A program made the position numbers and the translations under genes. The notes under the pieces are model-generated. The model saw only the letters and a program-made list of their open reading frames with translations, was not told the DNA's origin and did no database searches. From positions 1 through 58,874 of the IMG/VR virus record IMGVR_UViG_3300034104_003823: a stretch of 58,874 nucleotides of DNA, one strand, 5' to 3'. Positions 8,652-58,861 of the stretch are shown here, in pieces. The stretch is from a virus. Numbering within the stretch: the stretch's first letter is position 1; each line of letters opens with the position of its first letter.

Positions 8652-8659
8652 ATAAATAT
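8652..8659 (-). promoter_or_regulatory. Late-promoter-like ATATTTAT element
   Basis: AATATTTAT read on the minus strand, 14 bases before the start of the fibre gene at 8637. No -33 element is visible. Confidence 0.45.
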
Positions 8660-8670
8660 TACAAACTTTG

Positions 8671-11634
8671 TTAATTCAATTCAACCGCCAAACAAATTTC
8701 ACCTTGTTCTTTAATTAACCTTGTCATATCATTAAATGAAATAAATGCACGACCTTGTTTTCCCCAAGATTTACCCCAACTATTTTTTATTCTAAATTGT
8801 TTTTTTACTGTATCAACACCATTTATAACATAAGCGTGACCACCAGCTAAACCACCTCTTATTTTTATTAAACCAGTTGTATCTGGATAAAACATTCCAT
8901 AATACCAGTTTGTACCAACAACCACCGGACCTACATTTAATATTGTGTTTACTAATGTGTTCACATCATAAGCCCAATAATATGATTTAACTTTCTTTTG
9001 TTGTTGTAAAAATTTAACACCACCTCTTACGGAAGTACCATCATAATTTTCACCAAACCATTCATCTAGTTTTTGTGCGTTTTTATAAATAATAGTCGGA
9101 TGTATAATTGGTGCAACACCAGATTGTGGTACCGGACCATCTTCTAACCAATGAGCCCAAGCATAACCAACACAATGTGGTAAATTACCTTGATTGCCCC
9201 ACCATCCATTATCATCCCAATATTTTTGGGTAATAACTTTTGATTTTAATTTTTTTTGAAAATGGTTTTCAATTAAATATTCTTGGTCCCGTAAATCAGA
9301 AATATATGTTCTACCAAATAAAATATTATCTGGACTTATACCACCGGTTATTGGCGAAGGCCAATACCAAATTATATTGTCATCACCTTGTGTTGTAATT
9401 GGTTCAAAATCTTGTGTAATTAACAAATAAGGATTGAATGTTGTTGTGGTTGTTGTAACTGGAATTGTTGTTGTCGTAGTGGTTGTGTTATTTATAACAT
9501 ATGTAAAATCATCTACCTCACAGAAAGCCCCACAATCTGGACAATCCGGGTTGAACATTCCGAATTTATCTTTTAATAATAAAAAGTTGTGTTTAATTTC
9601 ATCACCAGTTAAAGGTTCCACATACATTCTAAATTGTGATATTCCCCCATCAAATGTTCCACCAAAATTTTGTTCCAATAATATATTTGTTGATAATCCA
9701 GATAATGTTGTTCCACTTAAAATATTATTTGGTAAGCATTCTGGATCTTGAATATAATTTGAAGTTAGGGCCGAACAAGAAGAAAATGTTAAATTTTCGT
9801 GAAGACCTTGCGTCCCACCACCCCAAGAGATGTTAAATGGTACGGCTAATTGTCTTTCTTTATCTGTGTTTAACCCACGAGGAATCACCTCTTCAAAATT
9901 TTCTAATGTGTATATTGGTTTTCCATTAACAAAAATTCTTAATCTTCCTAATCTATATTTTTTATCTTCTAACCATTTATCATTTAAATTTATAATTTCA
10001 ATGGTTTCACCATATTCATTTGTATGTGTTAAAGGTGGTTTAATTAAATTAACTGAATTATTTGCTAAAGAATCTAAATATTCAATTTTTGTTATATCAG
10101 CAAGTCCACCAAAATATTTTAAATCACATTTGTCTAAGTTTGTATATCTTGACCACACAACATTTACTTGGAACCAATGTTCCAAATTTAACCAAGAAGG
10201 ATTCTCTTTTGCACAAGTAGGATATATTGGCGGAGAACAATACTCCTCAATTGTATATCCAGTTAAAAATGTTTGTCCTGTAACACAAGTACCAGTCGTC
10301 TCACAACCACCGGTAAATCTCAAAACTTTAACTCCAATTGATGGATTTTTTGGATTACCACATAATTTTAAAGAAATTGCATTTGAGATTGAATCGTACA
10401 ATGGGTCTTTTTCACAAGTGTCCTCAATTGATGTATAACCGGTTGGACCACAAGTAACGCAATCATCACAAGTTTTACAAGCTGTACAGCTTGGTGTACA
10501 AACCGGTGTTGGTGTGTCACAAGTTGGTGTTGGACTTGGGGTAGGTGTTGGAGTAGGTGTTGGTTGAATAATCGTATCACACTTATGTTCTTGACATTCC
10601 CAACCACAAATATCACAAGGTGTTTCATTACATCCACACCCACAACTTATTTTAACCTTATTTATTCCACCACATTTATCACAACCATAATTTGCGTGTG
10701 GGTCGTGCTGATTATTTTTTGACCTTGGCGGGTATACATAGATACATCTACTATTTGTTATTGTTTTATTACAACAAGCACAAGTTTGTAAACAACCAGA
10801 TAATGGTGTTGTTACTCTTGTGTAACCGGTAAAACATTTTGGATTACCATCTGCGTGATGATAAAATTTATTTTCAGCTCTAGTCCCCATATAAAAAAAT
10901 GTATTTTTATTTTGAGGATATAATAAATTTAATGTTGTTTCATTTGGTCCAGGAGTATATTCATTTGTTAATCTAGGTTTTAAAACCATTTCAACAGACC
11001 AACCTTTTGTTACTCTTTCTGGTAAAATTTCATAATCATAACCAAACAATTTGTAAAATCCTTGATAAAAACCACCATATAATTCGTGGTATTTTCCAAA
11101 TTGTGGATGATCTTTACTTACAACTTCATATAATGTTTGTTTTGTTATTCCAGAAAAACGATTATAAGTTCCAGTATATCCTGTTACTTGAATCATTTTC
11201 ATCCTTCTATCATAAAACATTCTATTAAATTTTACAGAATCTTCAAAAATTCCATTTGTAAAATTTAAAGTCTCACCAGTCATTTTATTTACTAAACCAT
11301 TGTCAATACCTGTTAAACCAATATCACATACGGTATCAGCTGTTAAACAAGTTATTATATCTTTATCTGGGTTGTAATAATTTTGAGAAACAAAAATATT
11401 ATTTTGATTATAGTTTTTGTAATTTAAAACTAATGGTTGTACTGTTAATGGATTATCTATATCAATATTAATTGGCAACTTATCACCATAAGTGTCAGCA
11501 ATAATATATGGTGAAAAAACAACCTCTTCTTTGTAGTTTCTTTCATCGGATGCCAAAGACATGTCATTCCCATCATATATTAACCCTATCTTGTATTTTG
11601 GATAGTTATATTGATTAATATTTTGATACGCCAT
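8671..11634 (-). CDS. Virion protein with LamG-like, Cys-rich and papain-type (C1) protease domains (987 aa)
   Basis: Residues about 205-255 and 480-690 read as a concanavalin A/LamG-like beta-sandwich (RLRIFVNGKPIY, VPFNISWGGGTQG, NFGGTFDGGISQFRMYVEPL). It is split by a Cys-rich insert (267-401) with many CxxC pairs and a TPTPTPTPSPTPT linker. A poly-Thr linker (716-732) leads to a C-terminal papain-family domain, about 780-987. There Q815-x5-C821 (NQGNLPHCVGYAW), H933 (GGHAYVINGV) and N951 (KNSWGKSWG) give a complete oxyanion-Gln/Cys/His/Asn set. It is probably a tail or baseplate-periphery protein that cleaves host surface or phage proteins; the substrate is unknown. It lies first in the fibre operon and is divergent from 11689. 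Confidence 0.85.
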   Translation of the reverse strand: MAYQNINQYNYPKYKIGLIYDGNDMSLASDERNYKEEVVFSPYIIADTYGDKLPINIDIDNPLTVQPLVLNYKNYNQNNIFVSQNYYNPDKDIITCLTADTVCDIGLTGIDNGLVNKMTGETLNFTNGIFEDSVKFNRMFYDRRMKMIQVTGYTGTYNRFSGITKQTLYEVVSKDHPQFGKYHELYGGFYQGFYKLFGYDYEILPERVTKGWSVEMVLKPRLTNEYTPGPNETTLNLLYPQNKNTFFYMGTRAENKFYHHADGNPKCFTGYTRVTTPLSGCLQTCACCNKTITNSRCIYVYPPRSKNNQHDPHANYGCDKCGGINKVKISCGCGCNETPCDICGWECQEHKCDTIIQPTPTPTPTPSPTPTCDTPTPVCTPSCTACKTCDDCVTCGPTGYTSIEDTCEKDPLYDSISNAISLKLCGNPKNPSIGVKVLRFTGGCETTGTCVTGQTFLTGYTIEEYCSPPIYPTCAKENPSWLNLEHWFQVNVVWSRYTNLDKCDLKYFGGLADITKIEYLDSLANNSVNLIKPPLTHTNEYGETIEIINLNDKWLEDKKYRLGRLRIFVNGKPIYTLENFEEVIPRGLNTDKERQLAVPFNISWGGGTQGLHENLTFSSCSALTSNYIQDPECLPNNILSGTTLSGLSTNILLEQNFGGTFDGGISQFRMYVEPLTGDEIKHNFLLLKDKFGMFNPDCPDCGAFCEVDDFTYVINNTTTTTTTIPVTTTTTTFNPYLLITQDFEPITTQGDDNIIWYWPSPITGGISPDNILFGRTYISDLRDQEYLIENHFQKKLKSKVITQKYWDDNGWWGNQGNLPHCVGYAWAHWLEDGPVPQSGVAPIIHPTIIYKNAQKLDEWFGENYDGTSVRGGVKFLQQQKKVKSYYWAYDVNTLVNTILNVGPVVVGTNWYYGMFYPDTTGLIKIRGGLAGGHAYVINGVDTVKKQFRIKNSWGKSWGKQGRAFISFNDMTRLIKEQGEICLAVELN

Positions 11635-11645
11635 CGTTTTTATGT

Positions 11646-11653
11646 ATAAATAT
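11646..11653 (-). promoter_or_regulatory. Late-promoter-like ATATTTAT element (minus)
   Basis: GATATTTATACATAAAA read on the minus strand, 11 bases before the start of the papain-domain protein. It lies in the 54-base divergent region 11635-11688. Confidence 0.45.
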
Positions 11654-11664: not shown

Positions 11665-11672
11665 GTATTTAT
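11665..11672 (+). promoter_or_regulatory. Late-promoter-like GTATTTAT element (plus)
   Basis: AAAGTATTTATAGATAAAAAAA lies 16 bases before the start at 11689. It is almost the same as the element before the secreted protein gene (AAAGTATTTATTAAGAAAAAA). Confidence 0.45.
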
Positions 11673-11688: not shown

Positions 11689-12672
11689 ATGCCGGAGAGT
11701 AATAAAAATATTATTGAGTTAGGTCAAAAGAAAATTGAGTCAGTTTACGATAAAATAAAAGACACAATTAAACAATCTAAATCTGAAATTAAAGAAACTA
11801 GAATATTAGTTAGGATAATAATTAAGGCCGTTAAAGATTATTTAAAAACAAAAGATTTTGATTTATCAGATGAAGATAAAAAATTCATTAAGGATCAATC
11901 TGGTGATATTTTAAAGTTAATACCACTTATTGTTTTTCAATTAGTTCCAGGTTCAACTATTGCAACACCATTCATTATTAAATTGGCAAAAAAAGCTGGT
12001 ATTACATTAAAGAGTGAATTACCAAAAAAATATAAAGATGAAACCGAAGGTGGTGAAATTGACGAATTAGTAGATACTGACGGAAGTTTAATTGGTTCTG
12101 AAATTCCAATATTACAACAACCAATGCACCCTAAAAAAACAATGGATGTTACAGTAATTGCAACAAGACAAACAAACAATCCGGTTGTTAGAGGTTATAG
12201 AGTATATTATGGTGAATCCGAAGAAGGAAAAGATATTTTAGACGAAGAAAATATGTCAGATGCTTTTGCTTATGAAGAAACTGAAAATGATAGAACATAC
12301 AAAGAATGTATGGAAACTATGGAAGAGATGGGAATTGAAGAAGTGATTGAAAGGGATGAAAGATGTAAAACATTTGGTTTTGAAAAAAAATATGATAGGC
12401 AATTAAAAAACCAAAAAAGAAGAGGTAAATGTAAAAATTGTTTTACAAAAAGAAGATTAGCTGAACTTGAGAAAGAAAAGATGAATACACTTCTTGATGA
12501 AATACTTTTAAAAAAGAAAAAAGAAAGTAAAGATGTTATAAAAAAAGATGATGAAGATTCTTACAATCCAGTTGAGAAAATTTTAATTAGGAATATTGAA
12601 TCAATTAAAAAAATTGCGGAAAAAGAAGGAATTGATATAAACTCACTTTTGAAAAAATTAAAAAATGAATAG
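11689..12672 (+). CDS. LETM1-like phage protein (327 aa)
   Basis: An N-terminal helical region (1-75) leads to a hydrophobic stretch near 80-125 (KFIKDQSGDILKLIPLIVFQ, then a VPGSTIATPFIIKLAKKAG block). This resembles the core of the LETM1 ribosome-binding-like domain, also seen in virion-region proteins of other phages; the resemblance is from memory. The C-terminal half is charged, contains a small CKNC pair and two predicted helices, and ends in a Lys-rich coiled coil. It overlaps the next gene by 8 bases, implying co-translation. The role is unknown; membrane contact is possible but not shown. Confidence 0.6.
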   Translation: MPESNKNIIELGQKKIESVYDKIKDTIKQSKSEIKETRILVRIIIKAVKDYLKTKDFDLSDEDKKFIKDQSGDILKLIPLIVFQLVPGSTIATPFIIKLAKKAGITLKSELPKKYKDETEGGEIDELVDTDGSLIGSEIPILQQPMHPKKTMDVTVIATRQTNNPVVRGYRVYYGESEEGKDILDEENMSDAFAYEETENDRTYKECMETMEEMGIEEVIERDERCKTFGFEKKYDRQLKNQKRRGKCKNCFTKRRLAELEKEKMNTLLDEILLKKKKESKDVIKKDDEDSYNPVEKILIRNIESIKKIAEKEGIDINSLLKKLKNE

Positions 12673-14480: not shown

Positions 14481-14512
14481 AAACCTCCATTCCTTTTTTG
14501 GTTTGGGGGTTT
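14481..14512 (+). terminator. Rho-independent terminator
   Basis: AAACCTCC pairs with GGGGGTTT (one G-T wobble) across a 16-base loop, followed by a T run. It ends the 11689-14458 operon and lies in the 96-base gap before the glycosyltransferase operon, whose upstream ATG at 14498 falls inside the hairpin. Confidence 0.75.
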
Positions 14513-14554
14513 TTTATTGTTGATATTTTTATTTTATTGTTCTATAATTCACTT

Positions 14555-15769: not shown

Positions 15770-15772
15770 TTT

Positions 15773-16474
15773 ATGATTAATATACCTATAACAAAAATTT
15801 TATTCTTAGACATCGAAACCGTTGGTGGTTGTCCAGATTTTGACTCTTGTGAAAAGTTTAGTCCACAAATTGCGGAACAATTTAATAAATATTTTGATTG
15901 GTTTCAAAAAAGATTTCCAGAAGATAATGAATTATCAAAAGATGAGGTTTTTAAAAAACGAGCAGCACTTGTTCCAGAGTTTGCAAAAATTGTTTGTGTA
16001 TCAGTTGCTTTTGTTTTGGATAATGGTGAGACAAAAAAACAATCTTTTTTTGGTGATGATGAAAAAAAATTATTAAAAGAAGTAAGAACACTTTTGGACC
16101 GTTGTGAAAAACTTGGATTCTTTCTATGTGGTCACAATCTAAAGAATTTTGATATTCCAATGTTGGCAAAAAGAATGATTATAAATGGTGTTCGCCCATC
16201 AAAGATTTTACCATCTTATGATACAAAACCCTGGGAAATAAAAGCTATTGATACAAAAGAAATCTGGCAATATGGTTCATATACATCAATTGGCTCGTTG
16301 GATTTACTATGTTCTTGTTTAGATATACCAACACCAAAAGATGGTGAGATTACCGGAGCAAATGTACATACTGCATATTGGGAAGAACAAAAAATAAAAG
16401 AAATTGCAGAATACTGTGAAAAGGATGTCAATGTTTTAATTGATACCATAATGAAATTAAAAAGTTTAGAATAA
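15773..16474 (+). CDS. DnaQ-type 3'-5' exonuclease (233 aa)
   Basis: The DEDDy/DnaQ-like exonuclease motifs are present. ExoI is ILFLDIETVGG (D13, E15), ExoII is GHNLKNFDIPMLAKRM, and ExoIII is EIAEYCEKDVNVL (Y-x3-D). The arrangement is typical of phage PolB-like standalone proofreading exonucleases, which are about this size. It would remove 3' nucleotides from DNA in replication, recombination or host-DNA scavenging. It begins 3 bases after the GT4 gene. This nucleotide-metabolism gene, with dUTPase and PhoH, is interleaved with the sugar genes, so the operon is not purely glycan-related. Confidence 0.85.
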   Translation: MINIPITKILFLDIETVGGCPDFDSCEKFSPQIAEQFNKYFDWFQKRFPEDNELSKDEVFKKRAALVPEFAKIVCVSVAFVLDNGETKKQSFFGDDEKKLLKEVRTLLDRCEKLGFFLCGHNLKNFDIPMLAKRMIINGVRPSKILPSYDTKPWEIKAIDTKEIWQYGSYTSIGSLDLLCSCLDIPTPKDGEITGANVHTAYWEEQKIKEIAEYCEKDVNVLIDTIMKLKSLE

Positions 16475-16491
16475 ATTTAAAATTAAAAATT

Positions 16492-17707: not shown

Positions 17708-17716
17708 TAAAAAAAA

Positions 17717-18370: not shown

Positions 18371-18371
18371 T

Positions 18372-18914: not shown

Positions 18915-18923
18915 TTTTATTAT

Positions 18924-23760: not shown

Positions 23761-23762
23761 TT

Positions 23763-24824: not shown

Positions 24825-24825
24825 T

Positions 24826-25632
24826 ATGGAAAACAATAAAAGTATATCTGTAATACTACCGATTAAATCGGCCAAAACTCCTTTTTTTGAGGATTATTTC
24901 AAAAAATGTATTGAGTCAATCAATAACCAAAAAGTTGGTATTGAAGAACTTATTATAGTTCACACAAAAGAAACGGCACTTACAAATCACATTCAAAATT
25001 ATGATTTTGGTTCGTTAAATGTTAGATTTCTTGAATGGCAGAATGAACCTAATTTTGCTGAACAAATAAATGCTGGAGTTGAATCCGCGACATCTGAATG
25101 GGTTTCTTTTTTTGAATTTGATGATGAATACTCAAATATCTGGTTTAAAAATGTTAAAGAATATATTGACATATATGGTAATATAGATTCTTTTTTACCA
25201 ATTGTTGTTGATACAGATGACAAGGGTGTTTTTGTTGGTTTTACAAATGAAGCAACCTTTGCTGCAAATATTTCAGATGAATTAGGTATTTTAACTAATG
25301 AAACATTACAAACATATCAAAACTTCCAATTTTCTGGTTTGGTAATTAAAAAACAAAAGTTTCTAGAATTTGGTAAATTAAAAAGTAATTTTAAATTAAC
25401 TTTTGGTTATGAGTTCTTTTTAAGAATGACAAACAATGGTGTTAAATTTTTAACGATTCCAAAAATTGGTTATAAGCATATGAATTTAAGAGATGGTTCA
25501 ATTTTCTGGAATTACAAAAACAGTGATGATAGATTGACAGAAGACGAAGTTGGGTTTTGGATTGATAAGGCTAAGAAAGAATATTTATTTATAAATCAAA
25601 GGGATATAAAATATGAACCCCAGGAAGTTTAA
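24826..25632 (+). CDS. GT2 glycosyltransferase (268 aa)
   Basis: ISVILPIKSAKTPFFEDYFKKCIESI is the GT-A start. INAGVESATSEWVSFFEFDDEYSN gives the A/G-x...D-D metal motif, and FGYEFFLRMTNNGVKFLTIP supplies the acceptor-side E-x-x-x-x-R block. Length is usual for the family. The stop overlaps the next start (TAATG), which couples it to the gp55-like sigma gene. Acceptor unknown. Confidence 0.75.
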   Translation: MENNKSISVILPIKSAKTPFFEDYFKKCIESINNQKVGIEELIIVHTKETALTNHIQNYDFGSLNVRFLEWQNEPNFAEQINAGVESATSEWVSFFEFDDEYSNIWFKNVKEYIDIYGNIDSFLPIVVDTDDKGVFVGFTNEATFAANISDELGILTNETLQTYQNFQFSGLVIKKQKFLEFGKLKSNFKLTFGYEFFLRMTNNGVKFLTIPKIGYKHMNLRDGSIFWNYKNSDDRLTEDEVGFWIDKAKKEYLFINQRDIKYEPQEV

Positions 25633-26375
25633 TGTTAAATTTAAATGAACAAAATGAACTAGATATAAAGAAAAAGAAAGGAAGAAAACCAAAAGTAAAT
25701 AATTATTTTGATGAAACTGAAGAAAATGCTGTAAGAGAATATCTATTAGCGACAACAATGGATCAAAAAAATAAAATTTACAACCAGTTTTTAAAAAGTC
25801 CTTTAGATAAAATGATATCGTCAATAATAAGACGATATAAATTATACAGAAAAGATATGGATTTTAATGAAATTCATATAGACACACATTCTTTTTTGAT
25901 GACAAAAATTGATAAATTTAAACCTTCAAAAGAGAAAAAAGCATATTCATATTTTGGTACTATTTGTAAAAATTACCTTATGGGTCAAATTATGAAGGAT
26001 CAAAAAGATACAAATAGAAAAGTATCTTATGAGGATATTTCCGCTGATTTACATAATAGTCCAGATATGGTATATCATATTGATGGTCACGAATTAACAA
26101 CAGAAGATATTATTTCCGAGTTTCTAAAAAAACTAAAAGAAACTATGGATGATAAAAATATAACTGAACAGGAATTAAAATTAGGTGAGGCTTTAACTGA
26201 TATATTTGAAAATTATGAAAAAATCTTTATAGATACAACAAATAATAAATTTAACAAAAATATTATTTTATTTGAGATAAGAGAAATGACAAATTTGTCA
26301 ACAAAAGAAATAAGAACCTCAATTAAAAGATATAAGAAAATTTATTTCCAACTCATAAATGATTTAGTAAAATAA
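25632..26375 (+). CDS. T4 gp55-like late sigma factor (247 aa)
   Basis: A sigma region-2-like core: MDFNEIHIDTHSFLMTKIDKF, then KKAYSYFGTICKNYLMGQIM, followed by basic residues. T4 gp55 has the same sequence of features (an F-D-x-x-K segment, H-A-Y-x-x-x-A-C-x-N-x-F then basic). There is no region 4, which fits recognition of a -10-type element only. A basic Lys-rich N-terminus precedes it. In T4-like phages this factor directs RNA polymerase to late promoters with help of the sliding clamp. The match is by eye; a divergent host-type sigma is the alternative. Confidence 0.65.
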   Translation: MLNLNEQNELDIKKKKGRKPKVNNYFDETEENAVREYLLATTMDQKNKIYNQFLKSPLDKMISSIIRRYKLYRKDMDFNEIHIDTHSFLMTKIDKFKPSKEKKAYSYFGTICKNYLMGQIMKDQKDTNRKVSYEDISADLHNSPDMVYHIDGHELTTEDIISEFLKKLKETMDDKNITEQELKLGEALTDIFENYEKIFIDTTNNKFNKNIILFEIREMTNLSTKEIRTSIKRYKKIYFQLINDLVK

Positions 26376-26383: not shown

Positions 26384-26391
26384 ATATTTAT
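26384..26391 (+). promoter_or_regulatory. Late-promoter-like ATATTTAT element
   Basis: TAAATATTTATTATT ends only 4 bases before the start at 26396. A GGAG sequence lies 15 bases before that start, too far to act as a Shine-Dalgarno site. Confidence 0.4.
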
Positions 26392-30444: not shown

Positions 30445-30451
30445 TATTTAT
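30444..30451 (+). promoter_or_regulatory. Late-promoter-like ATATTTAT element
   Basis: TTGATATTTATAATAAAAAAG ends 13 bases before the start at 30465, just after the stop of the hub gene. Confidence 0.45.
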
Positions 30452-36137: not shown

Positions 36138-36145
36138 ATAAATAT
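36138..36145 (-). promoter_or_regulatory. Late-promoter-like ATATTTAT element
   Basis: TTGATATTTATAATATAATG: the element ends 6 bases before the start at 36131. On the opposite strand the same bases read TATAAATA, 16 bases before the start at 36161, so orientation is ambiguous. Confidence 0.4.
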
Positions 36146-38839: not shown

Positions 38840-38847
38840 ATAAATAC
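38840..38847 (-). promoter_or_regulatory. Late-promoter-like GTATTTAT element
   Basis: AAAGTATTTATTAAGAAAAAA read on the minus strand, 19 bases before the start of the secreted-protein gene. It suggests expression late in infection. Confidence 0.45.
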
Positions 38848-38966: not shown

Positions 38967-40814
38967 TTATCTTAATTCTCTTAAGTCAAATGTTCTAACT
39001 CCATCAACTGTGATTCTACCATAGAAACGGTTGTTAACGAATTTCTTAGCATATCTAGTCATTATACCTTTGATAGGTGTAAAGTTGAATGGGTTATACA
39101 TTGTAGGTGTCAATTGAAGAGGTACATACGGTGCGTAGATGTAACCAGTATCCAATAGAGATGTTCCTTTGTGACCAATCAAGATTTGATTTGGTGGGAA
39201 GTATGGATCTCTATAAACTTGGTATCTACCAGCCAATGTTCCAACTCTTTCAATACCCATATTGTATTGATCTTGCTCAGGTGAAGCGTTAGATACGTGG
39301 AAGTACTCAAGGTCATCAAAGATTGCAGAAACTTCAGATGAAACAACAATCCAGTTTGCACCACCTCTCAAAGTAGATTTGTGGATTTGTGCAGACAATT
39401 GGTTGATTGCTGTAATCAAAGTTTGGTTCCAATCTTTTTGAGTGTAAGAAGTTGTTAAGTTCAATCTTCTCCATCCGTTGTAATCCCAACGTAAGTTCCA
39501 AGCAGCACCTTTTCTCAAGTCTCTTAAGATTTCTCTATCGATTTCAGCAGCAACTTGTTCTGATAATAAAGCTGTTAATTCAGCTTCAGCATCGATGTTG
39601 TGGAATGCCGCAACGTCTTGAGCAAGTTCTGGTGACCATTGAGCTCTTAATTTTCTTTCTGTAACAGATACAGTTACTGACTCAAGATCAAATGATACTT
39701 CACCAATTTTGTCTTCAAATTCTAGTTCTTCATATCTTCTGTAAACAGTTGTGAAACCTGAATTTGGTAATGTTCCAATTGTTGATCCTGTATATCCATC
39801 AAGTGAATCTGCGTTACAACCAGCACATACTGGACAAGAAAGGTCAACTTCTAAATAGATACAACCATCTTGGTCACAAATATCATTGTATGATCCACCG
39901 TTACCTGCGTAAGGTGTTGCATTATTATTTGTAAATGTTGTTTGTTGTTGTCTTGAAGTTGGATTTACAATTCCTTTACCATATTGTTGAGTAACAACTC
40001 TAAACAATAATGATTTTGGATTTCCGTTGTCATCATAAAGTGCGTTACAAGTATCTGCAGTTGTAGTAAAATCTGTATTAGCAAAAATTCTTAAATCAGA
40101 AAGGAAAGTTTCACTATCAATTTCAGAACCATCAGGTCCGATTAATTTTCCAGTACCAGCGTAAGCAAAATCACAAAGTGCAATAATTACTTTTCTAACA
40201 TTTTTATTGTTATACTCACCATCAGCATCTTCAAGATTACCATTAACCCAAGCTTGTACAGTTGTGTCAGCTGTAACACCAGTCCAACGACCTTTAGAGT
40301 AATCAAACAATCCTGGAGGATCTAATGAAGCTTCAGAACCTTCATAAAATAAATCATAAAGATTTTTTTGGTAAGCGTTAGCTCCAGTATATCCAGCTGT
40401 AGTATCTTGTCCTGGGTTATTTGGGGAACCAATTGGTGCGTAGTGTGTTCCACCATTTCCTGGTTGAACCTCTTGATAACCTTGGATTTTAGGTACAAAG
40501 TAGAACAATTTACCAATAGGTAAGTTCATTGCTTGTACAGAAACGATATCGTTTGCTAACAATTTAGAGAAAACTCTTCTTACGATAGGGAAAACAACAG
40601 TTTCAAAAGCTCCGTTTGAACCTTCTGAAGTTGCTTCGTTAATCAAGAAAGAAGCTTGGTTTTCATACAACTGCGCAACATTTTCTTTTAGGTGGCCTCT
40701 AAGACCTTCTAGGAACCCTAATTTGTCCCATTTGTTAATTGTATCTTCTTTGATAACCTTAAGGTGCTTAAGACCGATGTTACCAACAAGACCTGATTCT
40801 AATAATGCTCCCAT
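38967..40814 (-). CDS. Major capsid protein, T4 gp23-like (615 aa)
   Basis: The N-terminal propeptide (TINKWDKLGFLEGLRGHLKE, YENQASFLINEATSEG) aligns with T4 gp23, including the processing site: I-N-E at 58-60 followed by Ala fits cleavage after E60. The core includes PIVRRVFSKLLANDIVSVQA and TERKLRAQWSPELAQDVAAF plus AEAELTALLSEQVAAEIDRE, a gp23 signature. The protein is about 90 residues longer than T4 gp23, owing to an insert around 130-350 with a Cys cluster (C313, C318, C327, C330, C333). It is followed by a strong terminator and preceded by a late-type element. Confidence 0.95.
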   Translation of the reverse strand: MGALLESGLVGNIGLKHLKVIKEDTINKWDKLGFLEGLRGHLKENVAQLYENQASFLINEATSEGSNGAFETVVFPIVRRVFSKLLANDIVSVQAMNLPIGKLFYFVPKIQGYQEVQPGNGGTHYAPIGSPNNPGQDTTAGYTGANAYQKNLYDLFYEGSEASLDPPGLFDYSKGRWTGVTADTTVQAWVNGNLEDADGEYNNKNVRKVIIALCDFAYAGTGKLIGPDGSEIDSETFLSDLRIFANTDFTTTADTCNALYDDNGNPKSLLFRVVTQQYGKGIVNPTSRQQQTTFTNNNATPYAGNGGSYNDICDQDGCIYLEVDLSCPVCAGCNADSLDGYTGSTIGTLPNSGFTTVYRRYEELEFEDKIGEVSFDLESVTVSVTERKLRAQWSPELAQDVAAFHNIDAEAELTALLSEQVAAEIDREILRDLRKGAAWNLRWDYNGWRRLNLTTSYTQKDWNQTLITAINQLSAQIHKSTLRGGANWIVVSSEVSAIFDDLEYFHVSNASPEQDQYNMGIERVGTLAGRYQVYRDPYFPPNQILIGHKGTSLLDTGYIYAPYVPLQLTPTMYNPFNFTPIKGIMTRYAKKFVNNRFYGRITVDGVRTFDLRELR

Positions 40815-40854: not shown

Positions 40855-40863
40855 ATAAATATA
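40855..40863 (-). promoter_or_regulatory. Late-promoter-like TATATTTAT element for the capsid gene
   Basis: GTATATTTATAATATAC on the minus strand, 40 bases before the capsid start. This is the full 9-base version of the motif, with a longer leader than in most other genes. Confidence 0.5.
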
Positions 40864-42580: not shown

Positions 42581-42588
42581 ATAAATAT
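42581..42588 (-). promoter_or_regulatory. Late-promoter-like ATATTTAT element
   Basis: CAATATTTATATTGTAAAAC on the minus strand, 20 bases before the scaffold start at 42560. Confidence 0.45.
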
Positions 42589-43652: not shown

Positions 43653-43660
43653 ATAAATAC
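43653..43660 (-). promoter_or_regulatory. Late-promoter-like GTATTTAT element
   Basis: TAGTATTTATTAATAAAA on the minus strand, overlapping the stop of the upstream gene and 14 bases before the protease start. Confidence 0.45.
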
Positions 43661-44180: not shown

Positions 44181-44189
44181 TATATTTAT
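44181..44189 (+). promoter_or_regulatory. Late-promoter-like TATATTTAT element for bS21
   Basis: TTATATATTTATCAAATAAATCG on the plus strand, 18 bases before the bS21 start. There is no Shine-Dalgarno site. Confidence 0.5.
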
Positions 44190-45132: not shown

Positions 45133-45140
45133 ATAAATAT
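45133..45140 (-). promoter_or_regulatory. Late-promoter-like ATATTTAT element
   Basis: CTAATATTTATAATAAAAAA on the minus strand, overlapping the portal stop and 14 bases before the start at 45118. Confidence 0.45.
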
Positions 45141-49025: not shown

Positions 49026-49039
49026 AAAGATATTTTTAT

Positions 49040-49047
49040 ATAAATAT
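49040..49047 (-). promoter_or_regulatory. Late-promoter-like ATATTTAT element for terminase
   Basis: TTTGATATTTATATAAAAATATC on the minus strand, 14 bases before the terminase start and right after the terminator hairpin. Confidence 0.45.
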
Positions 49048-49048
49048 C

Positions 49049-49080
49049 AAACCCCCAGTTATTTTCATAAAAGGGGGTTT
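49049..49080 (-). terminator. Rho-independent terminator
   Basis: AAACCCCC pairs with GGGGGTTT over a 16-base loop, between the stop at 49101 and the terminase promoter element. The T-tract on the minus strand is short. Confidence 0.65.
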
Positions 49081-49100
49081 AAATTAATTATAGATATATT

Positions 49101-53215: not shown

Positions 53216-53249
53216 AATATTTTGTTTTGAATAAATTATTTTTTTTTAA

Positions 53250-53258
53250 TAAATATAT
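53250..53258 (-). promoter_or_regulatory. Late-promoter-like TATATTTAT element
   Basis: TTGATATATTTATTAAAAAA on the minus strand, 34 bases before the start at 53215. Confidence 0.45.
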
Positions 53259-53290: not shown

Positions 53291-54025
53291 TTATTGATTC
53301 ATTGATAATTTCTTATCAATTAATTTTGTTGGTAAGTCGTATAATTTTTCTATGTAACCATTTCTTCTTAGTAGTTTAAATACTAGGTTTTCAACCGACA
53401 TTTCACCATTTTTTTCTAAACCACAATTTCTAAAATTTTTAAGTTTTGTTTTGTATTTCTTTACAATTGACCTAATAACATCTGGAGATTCATCATCAAT
53501 ATTATCAACAACACCATCAATAATCCTCATCCATTGTTTTGATTTGTTTTTAATAAGTTTTATATCAACATTTTTATTATCTAATTTTTTTGGTTCATTA
53601 ACCCAATCATTATATAGTATTGAGTATATACCACTACTAAATGTGGTTTCAGCCTCATCTTGAACAAAACACTCAACATCATACCCAAAAATTTTTATGT
53701 CGTGTTTCTGATTAAACACAATTTTTTTCAAATCAAAATATTCAACGTAAAGGTCTTTTGAGTTATTTGGGAATTGATTATAGTTTAATACTATATGTAA
53801 ATCAATATCGGAAAATTTGGACCAGTTATAATTAACTAATGATCCAATCATTATAATATCTGTGATTAAAATATCGGTACCAACAAACTCCAAAAATAAA
53901 TCTGAAATCTCAAGAAGTTTTTCTCTAACCTCTGGATTCATTTTCATATCCTTACCGGAACCTTCCCAAATTTTTGGATTTAACTCTTTTCTTGGTTCAA
54001 AACTTTTTAGTAATTCGTTTTCCAT
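53291..54025 (-). CDS. Nucleotidyltransferase-fold protein (244 aa)
   Basis: IIMIGSLVNYNWSKFSDIDLHIVLNY holds the G-S-x(10)-D-x-D signature of the polymerase-beta-type nucleotidyltransferase fold (G61, S62, D73, D75). GYDVECFVQDE supplies a possible third acidic residue. The rest is helical. Such proteins transfer nucleotides to RNA, proteins or antibiotics, or act as toxins; which applies here is unknown. It is preceded by a late-type element only 5 bases from the start. Confidence 0.7.
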   Translation of the reverse strand: MENELLKSFEPRKELNPKIWEGSGKDMKMNPEVREKLLEISDLFLEFVGTDILITDIIMIGSLVNYNWSKFSDIDLHIVLNYNQFPNNSKDLYVEYFDLKKIVFNQKHDIKIFGYDVECFVQDEAETTFSSGIYSILYNDWVNEPKKLDNKNVDIKLIKNKSKQWMRIIDGVVDNIDDESPDVIRSIVKKYKTKLKNFRNCGLEKNGEMSVENLVFKLLRRNGYIEKLYDLPTKLIDKKLSMNQ

Positions 54026-54030: not shown

Positions 54031-54039
54031 ATAAATATA
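54031..54039 (-). promoter_or_regulatory. Late-promoter-like TATATTTAT element
   Basis: TATATTTATATGTAATG: only 5 bases separate the element from the start at 54025, so any transcript would be leaderless or nearly so. Confidence 0.45.
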
Positions 54040-54052: not shown

Positions 54053-54298
54053 TTAACCTAATTTCTTGTATTTATGTGCTTTTGCAATTTTAGAACTAAA
54101 GAAACTTCCCTGTGATGGTGCACCTCTAAATTGTGTATATAATTGGTGTGGAACATTTTCATACTCATATTTGGTACCATTTTTAAATTCAACAACTAAA
54201 AGTTTTGATTCTGTGTCATATTCAGTTCTTACTAAATTTGATGATTGAACTTCATTTAATATTTTTGTTCCTTTAATTTCTTCTTTTGTAATTGCCAT
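54053..54298 (-). CDS. KTSC-domain protein (81 aa)
   Basis: VQSSNLVRTEYDTESKLLVV, EFKNGTKYEYENVPHQLY and FRGAPSQGSFFSSKIAKAHK give the compact KTSC-domain pattern (SSN...YD...L.V.F.NG..Y.Y..VP). Members are small phage and bacterial proteins near lysyl-tRNA-synthetase-like or virion genes; their role is not established. It stands between the UVR gene's terminator and the nucleotidyltransferase gene, with its own promoter element. Confidence 0.8.
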   Translation of the reverse strand: MAITKEEIKGTKILNEVQSSNLVRTEYDTESKLLVVEFKNGTKYEYENVPHQLYTQFRGAPSQGSFFSSKIAKAHKYKKLG

Positions 54299-54313: not shown

Positions 54314-54322
54314 ATAAATATA
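54314..54322 (-). promoter_or_regulatory. Late-promoter-like TATATTTAT element
   Basis: AATATATTTATTAAAAAATAAT on the minus strand, 15 bases before the KTSC gene start, between that gene and the terminator at 54341. Confidence 0.45.
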
Positions 54323-54365: not shown

Positions 54366-54737
54366 TTATTTTAGGGAGTTGATTTTATCTCTTAATTCTA
54401 TCGCCTTCTCAAAGTTCTGGGTTTTTATACATTCATCCAGTTCTTTTTTTAGCTTACTTATTTTTTCTTTATTCTTTTCTAAATTTTTAATTTTATCTCT
54501 CAACTCCACAGCTTTTTCAAAATCTTGTTCTTCTACCGCAATATCAAGTTCTTGTTTTAATAATGAAATTTCATTTGGTTTATTTTGTTGGTTCATTTTA
54601 TTTGTGAATATCGTATAAGAAAAAGAACCATCATCAGATGTAAAATTTTTTCTTTCATAATTTTCTGGATTAAAAAATTGTCTATCCAGGTCGTTAAATA
54701 ATTCATTAAATAATCTGTTAAAATTTCTATTAAACAT
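54366..54737 (-). CDS. Double UVR-motif protein, possible Clp adaptor (123 aa)
   Basis: Two UVR motifs fill the C-terminal half: LKQELDIAVEEQDFEKAVEL (about 60-87) and LKKELDECIKTQNFEKAIEL (about 96-123), each ending in R-D-K-I. UVR motifs occur in UvrB/UvrC, in ClpC and in McsA, where they mediate coiled-coil contacts. The N-terminus MFNRNFNRLFNELFNDLDRQFF is aromatic and amphipathic. It lacks the zinc fingers of McsA. It is divergent from a ClpC-like gene that itself has a UVR-like segment, so an adaptor for that unfoldase is inferred. Confidence 0.75.
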   Translation of the reverse strand: MFNRNFNRLFNELFNDLDRQFFNPENYERKNFTSDDGSFSYTIFTNKMNQQNKPNEISLLKQELDIAVEEQDFEKAVELRDKIKNLEKNKEKISKLKKELDECIKTQNFEKAIELRDKINSLK

Positions 54738-54796: not shown

Positions 54797-54804
54797 ATAA
54801 ATAT
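54797..54804 (-). promoter_or_regulatory. Late-promoter-like ATATTTAT element upstream of the UVR gene
   Basis: GTCATATTTATAATTTTGG on the minus strand, 59 bases before the UVR start. It abuts the operator-like palindrome at 54804. Confidence 0.35.
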
Positions 54805-54898: not shown

Positions 54899-56962
54899 AT
54901 GGGATTAGAATTTATTGATGACAACGACAAAAACAAAAAAAAGGGTGATGGATTAACACCAGTTTTAGACAATTTTAGCAGAGATTTAAACAAACTAGCT
55001 ATTGAAGGTAAATTAGATCCGGTTGTTGGTAGAGAAAAAGAAATTATGAGGATTGCTCAAGTTCTTTCGAGAAGAAAAAAGAATAATCCAATAATTGTTG
55101 GTGAACCTGGATGTGGTAAAACTGCAATTGTTGAGGGTTTAGCAATGAAAATAATTGATGGTGATTGTCCTAAAAATCTTGCTGACAAAAGAATTGTTTC
55201 ATTAGATATGAATTCTGTTGTTGCCGGAACAAAATATAGAGGTCAATTTGAGGAAAGAATGAAGGTAATTTTAGAAGAATTACAAAATTCGCCAAACATA
55301 ATTATTTTTATTGATGAAATTCATACAATTGTTGGTGCTGGGAGTTCGTCAGGTTCTTTAGATGCTTCAAATATTTTTAAACCATCATTAGCTAGAGGTG
55401 AAATTCAATGTATTGGTGCAACAACACTTGACGAGTATAGGAAACATTTTGAAAAAGATGGAGCTCTAGAAAGAAGATTCCAAAAAATTATTGTGGACCC
55501 ATCTACAAAAGAAGAAACTTTTCAAATACTAAAAAATAGTAAAGAAAAATACGAACAACATCACAAAGTAACTTATTCTGATGAAGTTTTGACTTTATGT
55601 GTTGAATTAGCTGATAGATATATTACAGACCGAGAGTTTCCTGATAAAGCATTTGATATTTTAGATGAGGTTGGGTCAAGAATGCAAATTGATATAAAAT
55701 TACCAGAACATATTGAGGATTTAAAACAAGAGCTTAATGACATTAAAAAAGAAAAAGTTGATGTTATTAAAAAACAAAAATATGAATTAGCAGCAGAACT
55801 TCGTGATAGAGAAAAAAATGTTATAAACAAACTAGAGGAAGAAAAAAAGAAATTTGAGGACGACTTAAAAAATAGTAAAAGAGGTATTCCGGAAGATTTA
55901 ATTTATGATGTTGTATCAAATATGACAAAAATTCCAGTAAGTAAAATTAATATTGATGAGAAAAATTCTTTGGTTAATTTAGAAAATTCATTAAACAATA
56001 GTGTTATTGGACAGGAGGAAGCTGTTAAGAAAATTTCAAAATCAATTAGGAGAAATAGAGTTGGTATTAAGGATCCAAATAGACCAATTGGTTCATTTAT
56101 ATTCCTTGGCTCAACCGGTGTTGGTAAAACATTTTTAGCAAAGAAATTAGCAAAGGAAATTTTTGGTAGTGAAGATAGTTTGATTCGTGTTGATATGTCA
56201 GAATACCAAGAAAAACATACAATATCAAGACTTATCGGTTCTCCTCCAGGATATGTTGGTCACGAAGAAGGTGGACAATTAACAGAACAAGTTAAAAACA
56301 AACCATATTCAGTTATTTTATTTGATGAAATTGAGAAAGCAAATAAAGATATTTTCTCAACATTACTTCAAATGTTAGACGATGGTCATATGACAGATGG
56401 TCTTGGTAGAAAGATTAACTTTAAGAATTGTTTAATTATTATGACATCAAATATCGGTGTTAGAAAAGTTCAAGATTTTGGTTCCGGAGTTGGTTTTAAA
56501 ACAAATAATGATAGTGAGGCCGTACAAGAAGAATACAAAAGAGATGTTCTTAAAAAAGAATTAAGTAAGTTTTTTGCACCCGAATTTTTAAATAGAATTG
56601 ATGATGTTGTAATTTTCAACTCACTTAAAAAAGAACACATTGATAAAATTGTAAAACTTGAAATTGATAGATTAATTGAAAGATTAGAATCAATGAAGTA
56701 TAAAATTACATATGAACAATCAGTTATTGAACTAATCGCAAAAGTTGGATTTGATGACCAGTATGGTGCAAGACCAATAAAAAGAGCTATCCAGGATAAA
56801 ATTGAGGATTTAATTTCTGAAAAAATTTTAACTAATGAGGTTTTAGAAGAAAAAGAATATATGTTATTTGTTAAAGGAGAAGGTGATGACCAAACAATAG
56901 ATATTGAAAGTAGGGAAACACCAGAACCAAAGAAAAGGGGTAGAAAGAAAAAGGAGGATTAA
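54899..56962 (+). CDS. ClpC-like AAA+ unfoldase lacking the N-domain (687 aa)
   Basis: Two AAA+ modules. D1 has Walker A GEPGCGKT (68-75), Walker B IIIFIDE (to E140) and arginine finger ERR (191-193). D2 has GSTGVGKT (404-411), VILFDE, and GSPPGYVGHEEGG. Between them lies KQKYELAAELRDREK (about 292-306), a UVR-like motif as in ClpC. FGSGVGF (527-533) resembles the VGF loop by which ClpC docks on ClpP. The usual 150-residue Clp N-domain is missing, so substrate delivery must be different. A C-terminal basic tail (PKKRGRKKKED) is unusual. It probably unfolds host or phage proteins with host ClpP. Confidence 0.9.
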   Translation: MGLEFIDDNDKNKKKGDGLTPVLDNFSRDLNKLAIEGKLDPVVGREKEIMRIAQVLSRRKKNNPIIVGEPGCGKTAIVEGLAMKIIDGDCPKNLADKRIVSLDMNSVVAGTKYRGQFEERMKVILEELQNSPNIIIFIDEIHTIVGAGSSSGSLDASNIFKPSLARGEIQCIGATTLDEYRKHFEKDGALERRFQKIIVDPSTKEETFQILKNSKEKYEQHHKVTYSDEVLTLCVELADRYITDREFPDKAFDILDEVGSRMQIDIKLPEHIEDLKQELNDIKKEKVDVIKKQKYELAAELRDREKNVINKLEEEKKKFEDDLKNSKRGIPEDLIYDVVSNMTKIPVSKINIDEKNSLVNLENSLNNSVIGQEEAVKKISKSIRRNRVGIKDPNRPIGSFIFLGSTGVGKTFLAKKLAKEIFGSEDSLIRVDMSEYQEKHTISRLIGSPPGYVGHEEGGQLTEQVKNKPYSVILFDEIEKANKDIFSTLLQMLDDGHMTDGLGRKINFKNCLIIMTSNIGVRKVQDFGSGVGFKTNNDSEAVQEEYKRDVLKKELSKFFAPEFLNRIDDVVIFNSLKKEHIDKIVKLEIDRLIERLESMKYKITYEQSVIELIAKVGFDDQYGARPIKRAIQDKIEDLISEKILTNEVLEEKEYMLFVKGEGDDQTIDIESRETPEPKKRGRKKKED

Positions 56963-56977: not shown

Positions 56978-57763
56978 TTAATGTTTAGAATAACCAAGTT
57001 CCTCAATCATTAGCTTACCAACTTTAATTCCGTTGTAAGTATCATCCACAACAACATATTCATTTCTTGTGTGCATATTGTAATAACCAATTGATATGTT
57101 AAAACAAGATATACCATACCTTTGATTTAACGGATATATGTCCGTATAAGGGTGGTGTTGATATTTTACATCACCTGGAAAGTGTTCTGTAATTAAACGA
57201 CCACCAACTTCAAAAAATTGGCTGTTTCTATTAAACATTGGTTTTGACATAAGATATTCAGAAATCATATTGTTTTCCGGAGCATCAAACTGAATAACAT
57301 AACCAACATTTTTAAAAAATTCTGGATCTGAATTAAACGAACCTTTACAACCAGTTTCTTCTGCAACAAAAAATGCGGCCTTTAGGTTTGGTAGTTCTTT
57401 TAATAATTCAAGACAACCGTATACACCACACTTATCATCACCACCAATACCGGTCGGATTACCATTATCATTATATGCTTTTAATGCCAATTTAATTTCT
57501 TTTTGTGCATTTGGGAGCATTTCTTCTCTAACATTTATTGTATCAATTGCGTGAACCGTATCTGTATGTGCTACAACACAAGGAAAATACTCAACATCTT
57601 CGTCAGTTTGTTTTAAAGCATAAACATTGTTAAACTGGTCAATATAAAATGGAATATCATTTTTTTCCAACCACTCACAAATAAATTCAACCATTAAACC
57701 TTCTTGATATGTTTTTGTTGGGACTGATAATACTTCCTTTAACAATTCAAAATTTCTTTCCAT
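56978..57763 (-). CDS. M20-type zinc peptidase (261 aa)
   Basis: VVAHTDTVH (H66, D68), TGIGGDDKCGVYG (D109 or D110), FFVAEETGCKGS (E135/E136), VIQFDAPE (D160) and NMHTRNEYV near the C-terminus reproduce the metal ligands and catalytic acids of M20-type di-zinc peptidases (PepT/PepD type). At 261 residues it is short: the usual dimerisation insert is small or absent. It probably cleaves small peptides, perhaps downstream of the Clp unfoldase. The gene has a good host-type promoter, suggesting early or middle expression. Confidence 0.8.
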   Translation of the reverse strand: MERNFELLKEVLSVPTKTYQEGLMVEFICEWLEKNDIPFYIDQFNNVYALKQTDEDVEYFPCVVAHTDTVHAIDTINVREEMLPNAQKEIKLALKAYNDNGNPTGIGGDDKCGVYGCLELLKELPNLKAAFFVAEETGCKGSFNSDPEFFKNVGYVIQFDAPENNMISEYLMSKPMFNRNSQFFEVGGRLITEHFPGDVKYQHHPYTDIYPLNQRYGISCFNISIGYYNMHTRNEYVVVDDTYNGIKVGKLMIEELGYSKH

Positions 57764-57767
57764 ACAT

Positions 57768-57798
57768 CAAATATAAAAAGAATAATTCAATTTACAAA
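57768..57798 (-). promoter_or_regulatory. Bacteroidota-type promoter (TTTG-N19-TATATTTG)
   Basis: Read on the minus strand, TTTG (57798-57795) is followed after exactly 19 bases by TATATTTG (57775-57768). This fits the published Bacteroidota -33 TTTG / -7 TAnnTTTG consensus. The -7 box ends 4 bases before the peptidase ATG, so the transcript would be leaderless or nearly so. Confidence 0.65.
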
Positions 57799-58847
57799 AG
57801 TTTTTTTAAAATTTTTCTAATACTTTCAAATAATTCTAAATTATATATCATAGTATTTAAATCTTCAACATTATTTACACTCCTCATTTGACCACTTGAT
57901 TGAAATTTTTTTGCGTAAATTATCCTTAATGTATTTGTATCTCTATCAATATCGTGAAATTTAATCCGATTACCATTTTGAATATTAATCCATTTATCAA
58001 AACCACCAAGTTTGGTAACTCTATCCATTAAAGCTATATATTCTTCATAATCCGGATTATTTTCCAATGTTTCTTCGGCAGCCTCAAGCATCTTATCTAA
58101 ATTATTATCATATGATCTATTTATAGCTTCTCTATCAAAATCACTACACCAAACATTATATTCTAACTCATACCAATCACCACGATTCACATTTTTTTGG
58201 TACCTTTCAACAAGAACTTTTAATAAACCTTTTAAATCTTCATCTTCAGCTTTTAATGTTCTATACCAATTAAGTAAAATACCAACAGTTGTTTTAAATT
58301 TATAAGCGTGCTGCTCCTCAACAATACCGTGTTTTAAAAATGGATTTTTTGTTTCTTTTTCTAAAAAACTTATAACTTCTCTACTAATACACTGTTCAGA
58401 TTCATAAGCATAATCATAGATAATATCATCTACCTCATTATTAAATGTACTATCTAAAAAATTTGCAACAATATGAGTATTTTCATTAGTTAATATGAGT
58501 TTTGGGTTTGTAAGTTTTAAAATTTGTCTTACTTTTTCTTTTTGTTCTTCGTTAAAACTATCAATAAGATATCCTTCTTCCCAATCAGACCTCCATCTTT
58601 CAGTATCAACATCATCACCATAATATCCTCTACCCATAAATTTACACCAAGTCCATATATCTTCATCATTATCAATTCCTAAAACATCTAAAAAATCATC
58701 ATCACTATCAAAAGCAATTATAACTTGTGTTGATTGTGGGTATTTGGTCGGACGAATATCATAAATTAACTTATCTGGATAATTCCATCTACTAACTTCT
58801 TCACCGTCATAAATATTTTTTAAAAATTCGTAGGTTTCACTTGCCAT
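57792..58847 (-). CDS. Unknown phage protein (351 aa)
   Basis: A soluble, acidic alpha/beta protein (KLIYDIRPTKYPQSTQVIIA, WTWCKFMGRGYYGDDVDTER, WCSDFDREAINRSYDNNLDK) with no recognised domain. It resembles, in composition only, proteins of unknown function in large phages. It precedes the peptidase gene by 28 bases, and the peptidase promoter's -33 box overlaps its end. A late-type element lies 5 bases from its start. Confidence 0.6.
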   Translation of the reverse strand: MASETYEFLKNIYDGEEVSRWNYPDKLIYDIRPTKYPQSTQVIIAFDSDDDFLDVLGIDNDEDIWTWCKFMGRGYYGDDVDTERWRSDWEEGYLIDSFNEEQKEKVRQILKLTNPKLILTNENTHIVANFLDSTFNNEVDDIIYDYAYESEQCISREVISFLEKETKNPFLKHGIVEEQHAYKFKTTVGILLNWYRTLKAEDEDLKGLLKVLVERYQKNVNRGDWYELEYNVWCSDFDREAINRSYDNNLDKMLEAAEETLENNPDYEEYIALMDRVTKLGGFDKWINIQNGNRIKFHDIDRDTNTLRIIYAKKFQSSGQMRSVNNVEDLNTMIYNLELFESIRKILKKLL

Positions 58848-58852
58848 ATTAA

Positions 58853-58861
58853 ATAAATATA
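58853..58861 (-). promoter_or_regulatory. Late-promoter-like TATATTTAT element
   Basis: AATTATATTTATTTAATATG on the minus strand; 5 bases separate the element from the start at 58847. The last 13 bases of the window are AT-rich and hold nothing else. Confidence 0.45.

Follow-up and report, generated by a model that had tools for sequence, protein, structure and literature searches.

What reads the short, A/T-rich element that stands before so many genes of the phage DNA in IMG/VR record IMGVR_UViG_3300034104_003823? The window (the whole stretch analyzed here, which is the whole virus record of 58,874 bases) is probably a fragment of a larger phage, and family searches place genes for a T4 gp23-type major capsid protein, head protease, portal, and terminase on its minus strand. 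An earlier note, made from the sequence alone, had described an [AG]TATTTAT core, in its strict form TATATTTAT, before about eighteen genes, and had proposed that it is the late promoter of the phage, read by a gp55-like protein encoded at 25632. We find that the motif is real and that its signal resides in its placement, not in its frequency. We consider it probable that [ACG]TATTTAT is a phage-specific promoter of a large T4-like (gp23-capsid) clade and that it is read by the gp55-like sigma factor. Two window proteins figure in what follows:

38967..40814, minus strand: major capsid protein, gp23-like (phrog_138, expectation value (E) 1.7e-67; T4 gp23 homologue)
25632..26375, plus strand: gp55-like sigma factor of 247 amino acids (aa), with sigma region 2 at about residues 27-125 and a helical C-terminal domain of uncertain kind; the proposed reader of the motif

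Relatives were collected with the capsid protein (the best 80 of 599 candidate stretches, 76-82% identity), and some of them sit on contigs of 296, 272, and 229 kilobases (kb). The window and three relatives of 229-296 kb (G001, G002, and G003) served for discovery, and two more (G009 and G011) were held out. The named capsid relatives are all distant: Flavobacterium phage immuto (41% over 54% of the capsid), Mel-JY01, LR756508, and Rhodothermus phage RM378. Genes were called with a custom script, and errors in some of the starts are to be expected. Divergent gene pairs were counted separately from co-directional genes because the promoter of one side is antisense to the other. Joined records lacked the final 1,052 bases of G011, 2,679 of crAss001, 10,410 of immuto, and 4,177 of LR756508.

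Over the window as a whole, TATATTTAT occurs 8 times versus 4.35 expected (equalled by 6 of 100 shuffles) and [AG]TATTTAT 39 times versus 24.4 (equalled by 1 of 100), a mild and borderline enrichment that is too weak alone to decide and that would suit chance occurrence in AT-rich intergenic DNA. Placement gives a different answer. Among the 29 window genes preceded by a gap of at least 15 nucleotides (nt) or by the window edge, 17 have [AG]TATTTAT within 60 nt upstream in the sense orientation and 4 have it in antisense, and 1000 dinucleotide shuffles of those upstream regions gave a mean of 1.3 and a maximum of 5. The density is 13.4/kb in non-coding sequence upstream of starts versus 0.09/kb within genes, so that the upstream frequency matches neither shuffled nor in-gene sequence, either of which would have told against the earlier note. 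With a gap of at least 15 nt the motif was present in sense in 16/28 genes of the window, 88/208 of G001, 83/175 of G002, and 49/119 of G003 (antisense in 4, 21, 17, and 8, respectively). With a smaller gap the fractions were 1/28, 7/151, 6/131, and 2/107, in agreement with the claim that genes joined by overlaps lack it.

Motif discovery upstream of genes, which the earlier note had recommended, was run unseeded on the window and G001-G003, and TATTTAT came first among 7-mers, in 292 of 530 upstream regions versus 90 expected. In these four genomes [ACG]TATTTAT stands in sense before 186 of 400 co-directional genes and in antisense before 11, the figures for the 130 divergent genes being 74 and 58. 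The held-out genomes gave TATTTAT sense/antisense counts of 85/21 (G009) and 54/3 (G011). As controls, the same script recovered the T4 late promoter consensus TATAAATA from T4 (8 sense, 0 antisense; the identical sites written as TATTTATA, 0 and 8) and ATAAATA from cyanophage S-CAM9 (11/0, with TATTTAT 0/11). No TATTTAT signal was seen in crAss001 (0/2 in 35 genes). Tenacibaculum phage PTm1 has a host in the Flavobacteriia, is as AT-rich as the window clade (29.7% GC, that is, guanine plus cytosine), and gave TATTTAT 11 times in sense and 20 in antisense; its signal is instead TATATTTG, 31 versus 1.8 expected. PTm1 is grouped with the gp23-type jumbo phages in the portion of PMC7824862 consulted. 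Neither AT-richness nor a Bacteroidota host is therefore sufficient for TATTTAT. Given the upstream shuffles, the antisense control, the held-out genomes, PTm1, and the orthologue permutation described below, the probability that the pattern arose by chance is negligible.

The count of about eighteen genes held exactly: 18 have the motif in their upstream non-coding sequence. The strict-form sites given at 40855, 44181, 54031, 54314, and 58853 were borne out, that given at 53250 lies at 53249, and two extra TATATTTAT copies (18435 and 29818) are inside genes on the opposite strand. The spacing is 4-20 nt in 15 of the 18, as had been claimed for most, the remaining three being 33, 40, and 59 nt (the first had been given as 34). 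The TATTTAT copies are:

8652..8658, minus strand: 14 nt before gene 4864-8637
11646..11652, minus strand: 11 nt before gene 8671-11634
11666..11672, plus strand: 16 nt before gene 11689-12672, divergent from gene 8671-11634
26385..26391, plus strand: 4 nt before gene 26396-26767, predicted leaderless
30445..30451, plus strand: 13 nt before gene 30465-31922; 13-14 nt in 6/6 genomes
36138..36144, minus strand: 6 nt before gene 35058-36131; 6/6 orthologues, 6-32 nt
38840..38846, minus strand: 19 nt before gene 36811-38820
40855..40861, minus strand: 40 nt before the gp23-like major capsid gene; conserved context, 17/78 relatives
42581..42587, minus strand: 20 nt before gene 40896-42560; 6/6 orthologues
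43653..43659, minus strand: 14 nt before the head maturation protease gene 42922-43638 (phrog_207); 14-16 nt in 6/6 genomes
44183..44189, plus strand: 18 nt before small gene 44208-44399
45133..45139, minus strand: 14 nt before gene 44396-45118; 6/6 orthologues
49040..49046, minus strand: 14 nt before the terminase large subunit gene 47259-49025; 4/6 orthologues, the other 2 starting in a tight overlap
53249..53255, minus strand: 33 nt before gene 51737-53215; 5/6 orthologues
54031..54037, minus strand: 5 nt before gene 53291-54025, predicted leaderless; 4-6 nt in 6/6 orthologues
54314..54320, minus strand: 15 nt before gene 54053-54298; 4/6 orthologues
54797..54803, minus strand: 59 nt before gene 54366-54737, overlapping a host-type TAATTTTG box
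58853..58859, minus strand: 5 nt before gene 57792-58847, predicted leaderless; 5/5 orthologues in other genomes

A 19th copy, at 25582, lies within coding sequence 43 nt before 25632. Autoregulation of the sigma gene through this copy was considered and rejected, because only 3 of 33 examined loci, out of 80, share it. A comparison of 46 distinct sequences downstream of the sigma gene (counting that of the window) showed TATTTAT in 36, with a spacing of exactly 4 nt to the ATG in 32, while the distance from the sigma stop codon varies from 0 to 14 nt; the remaining 10 are without an exact box. The capsid-gene copy (window ~40845-40864 and 17 relatives) lies within a short palindrome, GTATAT-TTATA-ATATAC in several relatives, with a conserved CTTTTT run before it, and is possibly a regulatory site.

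Conservation was examined across six genomes (the window, G001, G002, G003, G009, and G011), which gave 179 gene clusters present in at least three of them; 98 clusters had at least three members with a gap of their own. The motif precedes every such member in 39 of the 98 clusters (permutation mean 5.8, maximum 14), a host-type box alone precedes every such member in 6 (mean 0.055, maximum 2), and only 6 clusters mix the two.

The distance from TATTTAT to the ATG is bimodal, with values of 4-5 and about 12-16 nt and almost none of 1-3 nt. The 400 co-directional genes show peaks at 4-5 and 13-14 nt, with one TATTTAT at 1-3 nt and five at 0, and the 130 divergent genes have one at 1-3 nt and two at 0. 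In G009 and G011 the peaks again fall at 4-5 and 14-15 nt, with zero at 1-3 nt. Over the 468 motif genes of the six genomes, 167 are at 7 nt or less, 23 at 8-11, 194 at 12-20, and 84 beyond. The spacing class, short or long, is uniform in 32 of 49 orthologue clusters (permutation mean 12.0, maximum 21), and the distance is kept gene by gene: gp18 orthologues have 33-36 nt, and the capsid gene has 40 nt in both genomes having the box.

A T at position -1 is found in 102 of 114 motif genes at 4-5 nt, 29 of 37 host-type genes at 4-5 nt, and 455 of 782 others, as expected for the 4-5 nt genes if the ATG is at +1. For the 85 genes at 12-16 nt, positions 5-7 past the motif read AAA. Both the T at -1 and the AAA fit a transcription start 5-7 nt past the motif. 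The earlier note had taken the short spacing to mean leaderless or very short-leader mRNAs. Leaderless mRNA is implied at only about a third of the sites, those at 7 nt or less. For Flavobacterium johnsoniae, excerpts of PMC6847099 put the RNA-seq-predicted start 4-5 nt past the -7 element in the promoters retained there, with leaders longer than 10 nt in 87% of those transcripts.

Proximity to start codons could also mark an element of translation initiation, not a promoter, and adenines before the ATG are stated to aid translation in Flavobacterium (PMC6847099, in part). However, the spacing to the ATG differs widely between genes (4 to 40 nt and beyond) and is conserved for each gene, genes with short gaps are without the motif, and the scarcity of 1-3 nt spacings together with the T at -1 fits a start site. 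We regard a role in translation as very improbable.

No partner element accompanies the motif, as the earlier note had said: upstream of 442 motif sites in the six genomes no position exceeded 0.25 bits, the only trace being a weak stretch of T roughly 14 nt ahead of the box. In contrast, at 97 host-type sites a T-rich element stands out 20-23 nt upstream of the -7 box, at 0.35-0.52 bits. Host-type boxes were surfaced by the same unseeded count (530 regions) as TATCTTTG, 17 versus 1.6 expected, a Bacteroidota-type -7 box, and those of the form TATNTTTG peak at exactly 4 nt before the ATG (11 of 36 co-directional and 5 of 18 divergent), in line with the 4-5 nt from -7 element to start in F. johnsoniae. 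Shine-Dalgarno-like sequences precede 47 of 1665 clade genes, 6 of 204 in immuto, and 141 of 249 in T4. From the TAHHTTTG boxes, the rarity of Shine-Dalgarno sequences, and an RpoD-like sigma factor encoded by the relatives (see below) we infer that the host phylum is Bacteroidota.

The shared 4-5 nt spacing before the ATG and the T run common to both kinds of box would be explained if the motif were a host promoter in weak or modified form, recognized by host sigma A with phage-altered specificity. Yet the motif is without the G and the -33 element, both of which are retained in the host-type promoters of these phages, the two classes mix in only 6 of the 98 orthologue clusters, and no such signal exists in crAss001 or PTm1. 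We therefore think that reading by host sigma A is quite improbable.

The two classes serve different genes. The motif stands before the virion orthologues gp17 (4/6), gp18 (4/4), gp19 (4/4), gp20 (3/6), gp21 (6/6), gp23 (2/6), and gp25 (5/5) and was not found before the gp61 primase (0/5) or the gp43 polymerase (0/4). The pseT gene has host-type boxes in 3/3, and the nrdA orthologues, which lie in tight operons, are uninformative on promoter class. Among the 54 listed motif clusters, 20 proteins were scanned with PHROGs and 10 with Pfam; they gave a head-tail adaptor, a weak virion-protein match, a starvation-type regulator (phrog_858), and otherwise unknown families. Of the 13 listed host-type clusters 10 were scanned; matches were to an M42-type peptidase, pyrimidine-dimer glycosylase, polynucleotide-kinase-like ATPase, metallophosphoesterase, DUF932, DUF2927, DUF6576, and PcfJ, and two clusters had no Pfam match. 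It is plausible that the host-type set comprises early functions. These data support a phage-type promoter that serves most structural genes tested plus some others. The earlier note had called most of the 18 genes virion genes; the major capsid protein, head protease, and terminase are indeed among them, but the portal gene at 45140 lacks the strict motif and many of the 18 have no assigned family.

The protein encoded at 25632 is, by sequence comparison, a divergent homologue of T4 gp55. It has a match in 8/8 long relatives searched, and a profile built from 31 homologues picked out gp55 as the sole match among 59 T4 proteins (E 5.5e-5) and placed gp55 first when run against the whole T4 genome (E 0.0037). 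An AlphaFold model (mean predicted local distance difference test score 76) was aligned with VIA-align to 7d7c_F, the gp55-RNA polymerase open complex, at Z 9.4, tied with sigma E and other sigma factors, and sigma region 2 of the model superposes on several sigma factors at about 2.3 Å. The C-terminal 93 residues have a confident fold with no clear structural match, the best relevant row for a sigma-4 domain being 9a7s_A at a Z of only 4.2.

Residues that could set box specificity were compared with those of T4 gp55, in which A-12 stacks on Y97 (the -12 adenine pocket also including F86), A-9 contacts N13 and H95, and A-8 bonds T99 (PMC7892883, in the portion consulted). Y97 is conserved as Y in 10 family rows and 3 distant relatives aligned, and F86 is F or Y. 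The -9/-8 pocket residues are not kept: N13, H95, and T99 are E (D in a second alignment), Y, and G in the window protein. Note that the N13 column was placed differently in the two alignments and the N-terminal alignment is unsure. H95 was dropped as a specificity residue, since it is also replaced (by F) in 3 cyanophage sequences aligned and S-CAM9 uses ATAAATA. N13 and T99, which differ in the window clade, are candidates only, and A-8 is kept in TATTTAT.

The gp55-like protein seems the likeliest reader of the motif, in the main because of its distribution among phages. Both immuto and Mel-JY01 have the gp55-like protein and the motif family and show no Sigma70_r2 match at E 1; [ACG]TATTTA sense/antisense counts were 50/9 in 94 immuto genes and 26/6 in 95 Mel-JY01 genes. 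A motif family without Sigma70_r2 in these two phages favors the gp55-like reader. (Mel-JY01, PP395634.1, is recorded as a Microcystis phage; it has the clade's sigma and motif type, and its host label may merit a check.) PTm1, which has no motif, has no match to this sigma profile.

Several results weigh against a gp55-type late promoter. The structural Z of 9.4 is below the caution level of the tool for helical models (about 13) and does not separate gp55 from other sigmas, and a Foldseek search by itself found nothing at E 0.001 with either the whole model or the C-terminal model; the fold therefore supports sigma, not gp55 in particular. PTm1 has a different 120-aa gp55-type protein (E 6.4e-8) and no box, so the presence of a gp55 of some kind is no predictor of the box. 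LR756508 encodes the gp55-like protein, yet TATTTAT is missing from its 14 top 7-mers (386 regions, 480 of 484 kb), with 5 sense and 4 antisense copies in the first 160 kb. In RM378, which has a TATTTAA signal (17 versus 4.1 expected), the gp55-like profile found no match; a Sigma70_r2 protein is encoded instead. Thus of the earlier claim for the 25632 protein the homology and a sigma-like predicted fold stand, while its role as reader follows phage-by-phage occurrence, a rule that LR756508 and RM378 break. The gp45-type clamp family PF09116 passed the Pfam cut-off in 0/5 relatives, with a weak control. The capsid genes are without the motif in 4 of the 6 genomes, and over 78 of the 80 loci (L052 and L056, with incomplete starts, were left out) the box lies within 75 nt of the capsid gene in 17; none was seen in the other 61, where the upstream gene ends about 40 nt before the capsid start. 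Finally, the gp41-like helicase has the motif in 5/5 relatives, so that of the proposed late promoter the promoter-like behavior holds up and "late" is unproven.

Related searches gave PF02767 in 0/5 relatives (control 10/14) and the RNA polymerase beta-subunit family PF00562 in 0/5 (control 14/14), the latter counting in favor of the gp55-like reading. T4 gp45 and gp33, included among the homologue search targets, had no match, and divergence could hide them. The RM378 Sigma70_r2 protein (NC_004735.1, 128638-128847; open frame of 204 aa) is encoded near the capsid gene and is perhaps another sigma reading a similar box.

The remaining point against the gp55-like reader is a second phage sigma. 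An RpoD-like protein of 266-271 aa is encoded by 5/5 long relatives searched (E 2e-18 to 9e-18), in a region that the window sequence does not reach:

G001, 23181-23981: RpoD-like sigma
G002, 48930-49730: RpoD-like sigma
G003, 195721-196536: RpoD-like sigma
G009, 280552-281352: RpoD-like sigma
G011, 209666-210466: RpoD-like sigma

With this protein in all five relatives, the gp55-like assignment rests on which phages carry which protein. The motif might instead be read by the RpoD-like sigma, the gp55-like protein having another role. The small gene directly before it (DUF6576 in G002) has a host-type promoter in 3/5 and TATTTAT in the other 2, so the RpoD-like sigma may be made early, and RM378, which encodes a Sigma70_r2 protein and nothing that matches the gp55-like profile, shows a similar signal. 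Against this, the motif family occurs in immuto and Mel-JY01, where no Sigma70_r2 match was found, and the RpoD-like sigma resembles the Bacteroidota primary sigma and presumably would read TAHHTTTG. We consider reading by the RpoD-like sigma unlikely.

In the preferred reading, by the gp55-like sigma (25632-26375), host RNA polymerase core carrying this protein would melt and read the motif as a single box of the -10 type with no -33 element, and transcription would start about 5-7 nt past the motif. In about a third of the motif genes the start would be the A of the ATG, giving a leaderless mRNA, and in most others transcription would begin within A-rich sequence and yield a leader of about 6-16 nt. 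A separate gene set, probably early, would use the host-type TAHHTTTG plus -33 promoters. A fuller proposal is that gp55-type and host-type promoters form a dual start-site program in which starts at the A of the ATG, or at AAA with a 6-16 nt leader, are set per gene and conserved across genomes, leaderless translation is regular, and the specificity of a gp55-type sigma has shifted from AA to TT at -10/-9; we give this proposal an even chance of being right. The work provides a sequence-derived promoter map for a widespread, mostly uncultured T4-like phage group, with genes sorted into host-type and phage-type classes. It also points to a natural change of specificity in a gp55-type sigma, open to in vitro tests, names candidate residues for it, and predicts many leaderless mRNAs, testable in a cultured relative. 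If the proposal is true, phages of a phylum whose studied mRNAs mostly have leaders would regularly express genes by leaderless translation.

Other features of the window may be recorded here. A plus-strand gene run at 14498-25632 with several glycosyltransferase matches lies just before the sigma gene; in family searches of 11.7-36 kb, glycosyltransferases alone were named above noise. A large ATP-dependent-protease-like protein (phrog_4871, E 1.7e-238) is encoded at 54899-56962 on the plus strand amid minus-strand genes. The peptidase-type gene at 56978-57763 (phrog_4191) has a host-type TATATTTG box 4 nt before its ATG, and its cluster is host-type in 6/6 genomes. Terminator-like (intrinsic) sequences of the GGGGTTTTT type are enriched between genes in the window and G001-G003.

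How does the element compare with known systems? The window's group may be the "Far-T4" phages of PMC4360716; the word "promoter" is absent from the text of that source. The cultured, distant immuto_2-6A resembles the clade in having a gp55-like orthologue (78186-78827) and ATATTTA as its top upstream 7-mer (36 versus 8.3 expected, 3 antisense). Unlike the clade it has two forms of the motif, ATATTTAG with a conserved leader and CTATTTATA, and no 4-5 nt peak or second sigma match. The Bacteroidota primary promoter (-7 TAHHTTTG with a -33 element) shares with the clade motif the 4-5 nt to the start and a T-rich core, but the clade motif has no G and no -33 element and serves another gene set in the same genomes. 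The earlier note had seen the motif as TAnnTTTG with the G changed; TATTTAT is nearer to T4's own TATAAAT with AA changed to TT.

No report of a TATTTAT phage box was found in the open literature among the top matches listed, or in the portions consulted of PMC2988020, PMC7892883, PMC4360716, PMC6847099, and PMC7824862. Late boxes of KVP40, 44RR, S-PM2, and Aeh1, phages with a gp55 homologue, are in silico assignments in the excerpts of PMC2988020, and Aeh1, the sole variant named there, changes -13/-12 and not -10/-9 as the clade does. The T4 TATAAAT and TATTTAT differ at -10 and -9 alone (numbering from PMC2988020 and PMC7892883, as excerpted), where AA is TT in the clade; the leading TAT and the trailing AT of the 7-mer are common to both. 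Formally TATTTATA is the reverse complement of the T4 box, a description set aside because two substitutions are the simpler one. The clade also differs from T4 in that its box lies 4-5 nt, not 6, before the inferred start in the leaderless-type genes, and in the length and C-terminal domain of its sigma (247 aa with a helical domain of uncertain kind, versus 185 aa for T4 gp55). We do not file the element as a T4 late promoter because the defining consensus is lacking: TATAAAT occurs 38 times in sense and 119 in antisense in the co-directional gaps of the clade. Nevertheless, we class the element as working like a T4 late promoter, being a lone box without a -35 partner that stands before virion genes in phages encoding a gp55 homologue.

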